Part shown: one piece after another, positions 13,958 through 16,204 of the stretch | Numbering within the stretch: position 1 is the stretch's first letter | How the letters are laid out: every line of letters starts with the position of its first letter | Origin: Akkermansiaceae bacterium | Lineage (GTDB): Bacteria > Verrucomicrobiota > Verrucomicrobiia > Verrucomicrobiales > Akkermansiaceae | Assembly (NCBI GenBank): GCA_022510805.1 | Contig: JAFLSS010000001.1 | Coordinates: 59,143 to 104,290 of the forward strand | Length of the DNA: 45,148 nt | Reading direction: 5' to 3' | Made by a program: the position numbers and the translations under genes | The notes under the pieces: generated by a model | Told to the model about the DNA's origin: nothing | Database searches by the model: none | The model's input: the letters and a program-made list of their open reading frames with translations, nothing else

Positions 13958-13986
13958 TTGCGGTGGGCAATTGCCTGTGTTATCCT
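13958..13986 (+). promoter_or_regulatory. possible promoter of the small membrane protein gene
   Basis: TTGCGG (13958-13963), 17 bp, TATCCT (13981-13986); the ATG at 13999 is 12 nt further on. An alternative pair is TTGCCT/TGGATA, 13 bp downstream. Confidence 0.35.
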
Positions 13987-13998
13987 CGTTCTGTGGAT

Positions 13999-14325
13999 AT
14001 GTTCATGCGTATTTGCGGTGTGGCGCTCACGGGGGTCGGTTGTATAGCCATTTTGCAGAATATTGCTATCGCCCTGCATGGCGTCCGCGACCTGTTTCGC
14101 CCTCCTGAGCAGAGAAGGTTTGTTTCTTTTGTGCCTTTCGTTGGCGGTTTGTCGGTGTTTTTGGGCTTGAGGATGGCCGGCTGTGGGAATGTCGGATTGC
14201 TCGGCTTTCTTTTTGATCCCTTCTGGATTCCTCAATTTGTGTGTGCCTTGATTAAGGCGCTTTACCTTGGACTGCGTTTTCTTCTCAAAAAGTTGATGAG
14301 ATTGGTGGGCGCTGGTGAAAAATAA
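13999..14325 (+). CDS. small membrane protein, unknown function
   Basis: 108 residues from the ATG at 13999; an earlier in-frame start at 13963 would add 12 poorly hydrophobic residues over the promoter. Hydrophobic segments lie near residues 5-27, 45-62 and 70-95. The C-terminus is basic (KKLMRLVG). No family is recognised. The sequence is less GC-rich than the core genes and begins a small island with the palindrome array and hipBA. Its stop codon overlaps the first palindrome of the array (14324), so that hairpin may also end its transcript. Confidence 0.55.
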   Translation: MFMRICGVALTGVGCIAILQNIAIALHGVRDLFRPPEQRRFVSFVPFVGGLSVFLGLRMAGCGNVGLLGFLFDPFWIPQFVCALIKALYLGLRFLLKKLMRLVGAGEK

Positions 14326-14699
14326 ATCTTATCGTATAGTAAGATTTTGGCTGTTTTAGGGTCAAAAAGGCCAAAATCTTACAGAGCGGTAAGAAATGGG
14401 CTGTTTTGGGGTCAAAAAGGCCAAAATCTTACAGAGCGGTAAGAAATGGGGTGTTTTGGGGTCAAAAAGGCTGAAATCTTACAGAACGGTAAGAAATGAG
14501 CTGTTTTAGGGTCAAAAAGGCCAAAATCTTACAGAGCGGTAAGAAATGGGCCATTTTAGGGTCAAAAAGGCTGAAATCTTACAGAGCGGTAAGAAATGAG
14601 CTGTTTTAGGGTCAAAAAGGCCGAAATCTTACAGAACGGTAAGAAATGGGCTGTTATGGGGTCAAAAAGGCCAAAATCTTACAAAGCGGTAAGATTTTG
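14324..14699. repeat. array of eight palindromes with a 50-bp period
   Basis: The core box GTCAAAAAGG recurs at 14361, 14411, 14461, 14511, 14561, 14611 and 14661, exactly every 50 bp. Between and around the boxes are eight palindromes with arms TCTTAC / GTAAGA and a 6-nt loop. The unit is almost unchanged between copies and has no variable spacer. The outer palindromes have longer arms: AAATCTTA/TAAGATTT at 14324-14347 and CAAAATCTTAC/GTAAGATTTTG at 14672-14699. Within the first unit, AAGATTTTGGC (14341-14351) also pairs with GCCAAAATCTT (14370-14380). Fifty is not a multiple of three, so it is not coding. The array ends one base before the hipB -35 box. Confidence 0.95.
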
Positions 14700-14700
14700 C

Positions 14701-14743
14701 TTGTAAACAGTGAAAAAATAGGATATTCTTCCCGAAAGGGAAG
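14701..14743 (+). promoter_or_regulatory. hipBA promoter with a palindromic operator
   Basis: TTGTAA (14701-14706), 17 bp, TATTCT (14724-14729). A perfect inverted repeat, CTTCCC-GAAA-GGGAAG (14728-14743), overlaps the -10 and the expected start site. This is where a HipB repressor would be expected to bind. The leader is about 15 nt. Confidence 0.6.
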
Positions 14744-14750
14744 ATAAAAT

Positions 14751-14969
14751 ATGATCATAAACGAAGTACAAAACTTTGGCGCAACAATTCGCAAATATCG
14801 TAAGAGTCAAGGAGTAACACAGTGCCAACTGGCAGCGTTGGCAGGAGTGAGCCCACGATTTGTAGGAGAATTGGAGCGAGGAAAACCCACAACCGAGATA
14901 GGACGTGCATTCCGCGTCGCGTGGGTGCTTGGGTTGACGATTGAAATTAAAGGAGAAGAAGGGATATGA
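14751..14969 (+). CDS. hipB: HipB-like antitoxin, helix-turn-helix repressor
   Basis: 72 residues made almost entirely of a Cro/C1-type helix-turn-helix: TQCQLAALAGVSPRFVGELE covers both helices (about 23-42), followed by ERGKPT. In HipBA systems HipB represses the operon and neutralises the HipA kinase. The stop overlaps the start of hipA in an ATGA (14966-14969), the usual coupling. The promoter and a perfect palindrome lie directly upstream, and beyond them the 50-bp array. Composition is more AT-rich than the neighbouring gcv and tpiA genes, which suggests acquisition. Confidence 0.9.
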   Translation: MIINEVQNFGATIRKYRKSQGVTQCQLAALAGVSPRFVGELERGKPTTEIGRAFRVAWVLGLTIEIKGEEGI

Positions 14970-16204
14970 ATCGCGCTCTTAACGTCTATTTGTATGGGGC
15001 TAGAGTAGGCCTCATGAGCGAAAATGAACAGGGGCATCTCACGTTCGAATACAACGGAGAGCCTTATCCTCTTTCCGTGAGGATGCCTGTGAGAAATGAG
15101 CCATACGAATCCACATATGCAGAGCCGTTTTTTGAGAACCTGACACCTGAGGGCGATGTGTTGAGCCTTCTTGCACAGAAGTATCGAATGTCGCGGAAGA
15201 ACGTATTTTCAATACTCCGGCTCATTGGTGGTGAGTGCGCGGGGGCAGTATCGCTGTATCCGGGGGAGCCGGTCGGGCAGTTAGACACCCCACGCATCGA
15301 GCTGGAGCCTCGCGACATAGCTAAAATCATCGACACATTGCCTATCAATCCCCTCTTGACAGGCATGGAGCGCGCGCCGCGTCTCTCTCTGGCCGGAGCT
15401 CAGTCGAAATTTGCCGTATGCAAACGAGCGGATGGTTGCTACTATCGCTCCGATGATGAAAATCCGACCACTCACATCATCAAAATAGCCAATGCAAGAT
15501 TTGCAGAATTGCTTGAAAATGAGTTCTTCTGCATGAGTTTGGCGCGTTCTGTTTTCGATGATGCCGTGGAGGTGCAGATGCATGCAGCCGAGGGCCGAAA
15601 GTATCTGGAGATACAGCGCTACGACCGCCGGGAGGTGGGTGGAAAAATCGAGCGAATCCACCAAGAGGATTTTTGCCAAGTTCTTGGTTATCTGAGCCAG
15701 AACAAGTATCAGTCTGACTACGGCCCCAGCATTCGGCAAATATACAGCGCGCTCATGACCCACTCGCGGCGCCGCGCCGTGGATGCCTACAAATTCATTA
15801 AGATGCTCATCTATAATTACTTGATAGGTAATACAGATACGCATGCCAAAAACTTCTCCGTCATCCATATCAATCGAAATAACGGGGTCGCATTGGCGCC
15901 GGCATATGATTTGGTGGCCATAGATATATATCCCGCCAAGCTCGTGAGCCACGAGATGGCAATGATTGTCAATGGCAAAGCAAAATACTCCTCTTTGCGC
16001 CGCAAAGACTGGGTAGCGCTTTTTACGCAGATGGAGCTCAACCCGACGGTTTTGATGAAAGAAATAGAGAAAAGCTTTGCTCGCATCATCGAGAATGGCC
16101 AGCAACTGGCGGAGCGTTTCAATGATGATCCTCTTACAAAGTCCGGCGTTTATGCGAAGATAATGAACAATATCCGGCGGCGCAGCGAAACCTTATTCGG
16201 TTGA
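14966..16204 (+). CDS. hipA: HipA-like serine/threonine kinase toxin
   Basis: 412 residues, close to the family length. The phosphate-loop region LSLAGAQSKFAV (140-151) carries the serine (S141) that is autophosphorylated in the E. coli protein. THIIK supplies the ATP lysine near K173. The catalytic loop LIGNTDTHAKNF (286-297) has the Asp at 291, and a DFG-like YDL has D315, so the kinase appears intact. HipA kinases arrest growth by phosphorylating tRNA synthetases such as GltX; the target here is unknown. It is coupled to hipB by a 4-bp overlap. It lies in a less GC-rich island between gcvT and tpiA. Confidence 0.92.
   Translation: MNRALNVYLYGARVGLMSENEQGHLTFEYNGEPYPLSVRMPVRNEPYESTYAEPFFENLTPEGDVLSLLAQKYRMSRKNVFSILRLIGGECAGAVSLYPGEPVGQLDTPRIELEPRDIAKIIDTLPINPLLTGMERAPRLSLAGAQSKFAVCKRADGCYYRSDDENPTTHIIKIANARFAELLENEFFCMSLARSVFDDAVEVQMHAAEGRKYLEIQRYDRREVGGKIERIHQEDFCQVLGYLSQNKYQSDYGPSIRQIYSALMTHSRRRAVDAYKFIKMLIYNYLIGNTDTHAKNFSVIHINRNNGVALAPAYDLVAIDIYPAKLVSHEMAMIVNGKAKYSSLRRKDWVALFTQMELNPTVLMKEIEKSFARIIENGQQLAERFNDDPLTKSGVYAKIMNNIRRRSETLFG

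Follow-up and report, generated by a model that had tools for sequence, protein, structure and literature searches.

A candidate nine-site HipB operator array in 50-bp register at a hipBA locus of an Akkermansiaceae bacterium

Introduction

HipB dimers of Escherichia coli have been described as binding cooperatively to four operators with HipA as a co-repressor, and DNA-bound HipB as keeping HipA inactive (PMC3920265). The four hipBA operators of strain MG1655 are located at -134, -106, -67 and -39, at spacings of 28, 39 and 28 bp. The Legionella HipBST system is reported to have evenly spaced 18-nt inverted repeats, each of which was bound by HipB in EMSA (PMC10653801). For RptR, a repressor of an E. 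coli defence island, two sites are reported to suffice, and a third was proposed by the authors to raise sensitivity (PMC12255303). Here we describe a hipBA locus with nine palindromes in constant register, found in a stretch of 45,148 nucleotides from an Akkermansiaceae bacterium, which we refer to in its full length as the window.

Results

Structure of the locus

The window contains a HipBA module in which a gene for an HTH antitoxin is directly followed by the gene for a HipA kinase. Upstream of hipB are nine palindromes of 18 bp, with starts from 14327 to 14727 and a step of exactly 50 bp at all eight intervals. The features, with the palindromes numbered as candidate operators, are the following (window coordinates).

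14327..14344, no strand: operator 1 (most distal), TCTTAT-CGTATA-GTAAGA, one arm mismatch
14377..14394, no strand: operator 2, TCTTAC-AGAGCG-GTAAGA
14427..14444, no strand: operator 3, TCTTAC-AGAGCG-GTAAGA
14477..14494, no strand: operator 4, TCTTAC-AGAACG-GTAAGA
14527..14544, no strand: operator 5, TCTTAC-AGAGCG-GTAAGA
14577..14594, no strand: operator 6, TCTTAC-AGAGCG-GTAAGA
14627..14644, no strand: operator 7, TCTTAC-AGAACG-GTAAGA
14677..14694, no strand: operator 8, TCTTAC-AAAGCG-GTAAGA, directly 5' of the likely -35 box
14727..14744, no strand: operator 9, promoter-proximal (O1 in relatives), TCTTCC-CGAAAG-GGAAGA, overlaps the -10 box
14701..14729, plus strand: putative hipBA promoter, TTGTAA (14701-14706), 17 bp, TATTCT (14724-14729)
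14751..14969, plus strand: hipB, 72-aa HTH antitoxin/repressor, PF01381 above cut-off
14966..16204, plus strand: hipA, 412-aa Ser/Thr kinase toxin, PF07804 and PF13657 above cut-offs

The HipB protein also matched TIGR03070 (E = 3e-18) with a score of 65.5 bits, which is under the curated cut-off of 71.65, and HipA matched the structures of E. coli HipA (E = 7.5e-36) in an alignment that includes the LIG.TD.HAKNFSV stretch. An AlphaFold model of HipB alone had a pLDDT of 58 and was left out of the conclusions. The genes flanking hipBA and the array are gcvP/gcvH/gcvT and tpiA. In a search for an array-free version of the site, gcvT was found at most 1.5 kb upstream of tpiA at none of 29 additional loci of relatives, and it lies beyond that distance at the window's own locus as well. 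On its upstream side the array adjoins a membrane-like ORF of 120 aa (13963-14325), for which we found no match in Pfam or NCBIfam and no homologue in any of the 75 other genomes of the genus.

A first-pass annotation of this DNA had reported eight TCTTAC-N6-GTAAGA palindromes in an exact 50-bp tandem array, starting on the stop codon of the small ORF and ending before the hipB promoter. The start was confirmed, with the TAA at 14323-14325 and the first palindrome from 14327. All eight palindromes were recovered, with starts at 14327+50k, seven of them perfect (palindromes 2-8), while palindrome 1 (TCTTAT..GTAAGA) has a single mismatch in its arms. The series continues past the likely promoter, where a further palindrome, TCTTCCCGAAAGGGAAGA (TCTTCC-N6-GGAAGA), had been overlooked in exact 50-bp register at 14727-14744; this ninth one overlaps the presumed -10 box, and 6 bp separate its end from the hipB start. 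A pattern covering all nine, TCTTMY-N6-GKAAGA, gave 17 strand-wise matches against 0.00 expected from 100 dinucleotide shuffles.

The exactness of the array lies in its register and not in its sequence, since inner units have 43-48 of 50 bases in common while Tandem Repeats Finder (TRF) reported a period of 50, 6.9 copies, 90% matches and 0% indels. Variable columns among the inner units were 0 of 12 in the arms and 9 of 38 elsewhere, a difference that was not significant (p = 0.09). As previously noted, the outer arms are longer in the first and the eighth palindrome only, with A-T pairs at positions +-9.5 and +-10.5. The interval between palindromes 8 and 9 is unlike the other units and contains the likely promoter of hipBA. 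Exact internal repeats reach at most 52 bp, so that assemblies with longer k-mers resolve the array, the copy number of which is based on a single draft genome.

The seven boxes described earlier are GTCAAAAAGG, with exactly seven occurrences at 14361+50k between palindromes 1 and 8. This box (14361-14670) shows no more variation than the palindrome arms and adjoins a second, weak dyad midway between operators (TTTT-N6-AAAA). We found no role for it from unit variation, symmetry or the window sequence. All six reading frames are interrupted, with a longest open stretch of 43 codons, and the array can be ruled out as coding sequence, in line with the earlier call.

Uniqueness of the array

The perfect palindrome occurs seven times in the genome, always within the array, and the nearest outsider has one mismatch. 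When two mismatches were allowed, the real pattern gave 24 matches and a reversed-pattern control 55. A DNA search recovered the array from 1 of 59 genomes and a search for pairs of the TCTTAC pattern from 1 of 387 genomes of the phylum, in both cases the window's own, and a BLAST search with the array against plasmids and phages gave no match. The first-pass annotation had named a generic minisatellite as the outcome if the array were missing from orthologous hipBA loci and many unrelated copies turned up in the genome as well; no such copy was found, and since the array is single-copy this explanation can be ruled out.

Operators at homologous hipBA loci

HipA homologues were present in 40 of 76 genomes of the genus. 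For the comparison of promoters we used 36 full-type Akkermansia hipA loci, leaving out two truncated ones (L010 and L037) from a set of 38. Operators were called upstream of hipB at >=9 of 12 matches to TATTCC-N6-GGAATA, a consensus that was picked after inspection of the same loci. We obtained 84 sites, compared with a shuffle mean of 7.7, and neighbouring operators were 49-52 bp apart in 45 of 48 pairs, exactly 50 bp in 29 of them. As a control, 12 loci of a second hip type yielded 6 unphased sites.

The nearest homologues (L008, L009 and L011, HipA identity 57-58%) have two operators around the promoter, a proximal one on the -10 box and a distal one exactly 50 bp upstream, just before the -35 box. 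The nine-fold array is absent from homologous loci, yet an operator pair in the same 50-bp phase is present there, and the spacing of about 50 bp recurs at all eight intervals of the window array. Operator 8 corresponds to the distal operator (O2) of these two-operator homologues. The window promoter was placed by register with the TTGACG-17-TAATAT promoter of these three loci; the candidate TTGTAA-17-TATTCT has 8 of 12 consensus matches, with its -10 box at -3 relative to the proximal operator, and was not called by a promoter scanner run on the window. A candidate promoter with 9 or more of 12 matches was present at 26 of the 36 Akkermansia loci, and its -10 box starts 2-5 bp before the proximal operator at 25 of the 26.

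Operator 9 matches the genus consensus at 10 of 12 positions and operators 2-8 at 8 of 12. Operators 1-8 fall below the survey threshold because they reach at most 8 of 12. At its positions 2 and 5 the half-site TCTTAC has the letters that are the most frequent alternatives there in 162 half-sites from 81 operators; as an exact half-site it occurs in none of these other 81, in which each of the letters occurs separately. The unit spacers were marginally similar to the promoter spacers of homologues (p = 0.06-0.11) and also to the window's own promoter spacer (p = 0.02); the idea that they derive from the promoter spacer has marginal support.

The longest operator chain was at most three in the other 35 genus loci (>=9/12 threshold), 0-4 in 59 hipA promoters of the phylum and 1-4 in 92 loci on GTDB contigs. 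The 59 phylum promoters represent the best full-length HipA matches among the matches listed, with two near a contig start and a 100-base filler region (L223) left out. Since the chains were counted with the TATTCC motif, an array whose motif has diverged could have escaped notice. The natural HipB promoters surveyed have one to four operators, and the window has nine in perfect phase. No operator array of this size was found in the literature on hipB operators and Akkermansia hipA, as judged from titles and the openings of abstracts.

Distribution of phased operator pairs across phyla

As an independent test, all GTDB contigs were scanned for pairs of TATTMC-N6-GKAATA with a start-to-start distance of 38-68 bp, which gave 92 stretches. 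The first pair was spaced by 48-52 bp in 74 of these, of which 68 were located beside hipA or hipB, 4 at contig edges and 2 at neither, while only 1 of the 18 stretches with other spacings was beside hip. The difference between 68/74 and 1/18 indicates that the motif at 48-52 bp marks hipBA promoters in many phyla.

TATTMC-N6-GKAATA pairs were also seen on 11 virus contigs (L153-L163; for example 2876-2942 in L155 and 9572-9638 in L160), with a spacing of 49 bp in nine, 50 bp in one and 52 bp in one (45-55 bp allowed). Several of these come from related phages, in which two genes flank the pair. None of the 11 records, some of which may be fragments, had a match to the HipB or HipA families. 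Such pairs could possibly serve as decoys for host HipBA, or place phage genes under the control of host HipB. Another virus contig of 54.9 kb has TCTTACATATCGGTAAGATTTTGG and TCTTACCGAGCGGTAAGA 50 bp apart (L149:12804-12871), a pair very like the window array that sits between a 90-aa ORF and an ORF of HNH-like look; the record contains no matches to HTH_3, HipB or HipA. A bacterial contig has an operator pair at 50 bp without hipBA (L141:1938-2005), adjoining a 324-aa ORF that we take to resemble an AbiEii-type nucleotidyltransferase.

Discussion

Interpretation of the array

We conclude that the array is very probably a HipB operator array, an assignment made from sequence comparisons: multiple 18-bp palindromes stand 5' of hipB, with operator 9 over a putative promoter of 8/12 matches. 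The observations behind it are the sequence, register and uniqueness of the array, the motif and spacing at homologous loci and the association with hipBA across phyla. Only slightly less firmly, we take it for the operator set of the hipBA promoter, tandem-duplicated to nine sites with the phase kept. By analogy with the systems described, the nine sites would bind HipB or HipBA, and sites 9 and 8 would repress. A cooperative binding platform was one of the readings offered by the first-pass annotation; a binding platform is what we favour, with HipB as the likely binder, while its cooperativity is something we infer.

The array would have started from an ancestral pair, with one operator over the -10 box and a second one 50 bp upstream as in the closest homologues, after which the upstream operator and its 32-bp spacer would have multiplied, presumably by slippage or unequal exchange. 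Each 18-bp palindrome would be bound by a HipB dimer, either by itself or within HipB2HipA2. Occupation of operator 9 would block the promoter and that of operator 8 would stabilise the complex. The seven extra operators would be dispensable for repression; most likely they serve as a built-in store and decoy, with up to 18 HipA molecules parked on the DNA.

It is possible, although we hold it tentatively, that the extra operators raise the threshold for repression. If complexes fill the row cooperatively, about nine rather than two would be needed before the promoter closes. In a toy lattice model with assumed affinities and copy numbers, the threshold moved from about 2 complexes with two sites to about 9 with nine sites when cooperativity was strong and binding tight.

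To about the same degree possible is that the expansion is neutral, a single HipB operator having been copied by slippage or unequal exchange, with the proximal pair working alone and the distal copies inert. This competes with the threshold effect and not with the identity of the sites. It agrees with the two to three operators that are enough elsewhere, with the restriction of the array to one genome in both searches, with the lack of significant arm conservation and with the toy model itself, which behaved alike at N = 2 and N = 9 when complexes were in excess. The units are near-identical, and so the array is probably young. The absence of indels from the 50-bp spacing over nine sites and the perfection of palindromes 2-8 speak against neutrality, but they are also expected of a recent array.

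Alternatively, another DNA-binding protein might occupy the array, its position next to hipBA being fortuitous. This is improbable. Two positions of the array half-sites do deviate from the genus consensus, and the virus contig L149 has a TCTTAC pair 50 bp apart with no HTH_3 protein detected. However, operator 9 has a sequence partway between the array operators and the genus consensus and stands in exact register, homologous loci have a pair in the same phase, and the genome contains no further perfect sites.

Still less credible is a transcribed array forming a chain of hairpins as a structured or decoy RNA, a suggestion of the first-pass annotation that now appears weak. In type III toxin-antitoxin systems, the gene for an endoribonuclease toxin is preceded by transcribed repeats; the toxin here is the HipA kinase, and the array does not belong to that class. 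The RNA of two units has a folding energy of -30.3 kcal/mol, better than that of shuffles (z = -3.98), as any palindrome must. The unit is quasi-palindromic far past the operator, a symmetry of which other HipB operators show little beyond about +-11.5, and of the seven operators paired at +-13.5, two have T-A in place of C-G, both bases having changed together. However, the symmetric pairs at +-15.5, +-20.5 and +-22.5 break, so that base pairs are not consistently preserved, and the array lies upstream of the putative promoter. Matches to Rfam were all sub-threshold, with no family reaching its gathering score.

Finally, a partition, iteron or CRISPR-like element, of which the first two had also been raised, is very improbable: the repeats are direct and regular with dyads, but the neighbours are gcvP/H/T, hipBA and tpiA, the array is single-copy, in relatives, sites of this kind and phase are plain elements of hipBA promoters, and the near-identical spacers, correctly described before as not variable, set it apart from a CRISPR array.

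Implications of operator number

If the array is a HipB operator array, the nine-operator promoter represents a natural experiment on operator number in toxin-antitoxin feedback, in which the extra operators may reset the toxin level tolerated before hipBA is shut down. On a speculative and rather unlikely extension, the tandem repeat would be a dial on a persistence switch, the number of operators counting the HipBA complexes needed before repression; being a near-identical 50-bp repeat, it could gain and lose units by recombination, and lineages could then inherit different toxin set-points with unchanged proteins. The survey suggests a more general rule, which we did not find stated in the hipB-operator literature searched, that hipBA operators of the window's family are placed 49-51 bp apart across several phyla. 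Such a constant distance would suggest that HipBA bridges adjacent sites in a conserved manner.

Comparison with known systems

The locus resembles that of E. coli K-12 in its hipB-hipA operon with several 18-bp palindromic operators upstream. It differs in having nine sites at 50 bp with another half-site, whereas E. coli K-12 has four, TATCC-N8-GGATA, at 28, 39 and 28 bp. Operators of the E. coli type, in motif and 28/39-bp spacing, are not seen in the window, and the two HipB proteins are 18% identical. The even 18-nt inverted repeats described for Legionella HipBST, with the proximal one over the promoter, are alike in layout, but that account gives three operators, separated by gaps of 53 bp, in a tripartite system with another motif (PMC10653801). 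The hipBA1 and hipBA2 promoters of Caulobacter are likewise reported to have multiple palindromic operators, but three sites each (PMC8545095). RptR is similar as a repressor that acts at its own promoter, on palindromic repeats in tandem; these are described as 9-bp repeats in three copies, and the regulator is unrelated (PMC12255303). A raised sensitivity, as proposed there for the extra site, would be the reverse of the decoy effect that the additional operators may exert at the hipBA promoter of the window.
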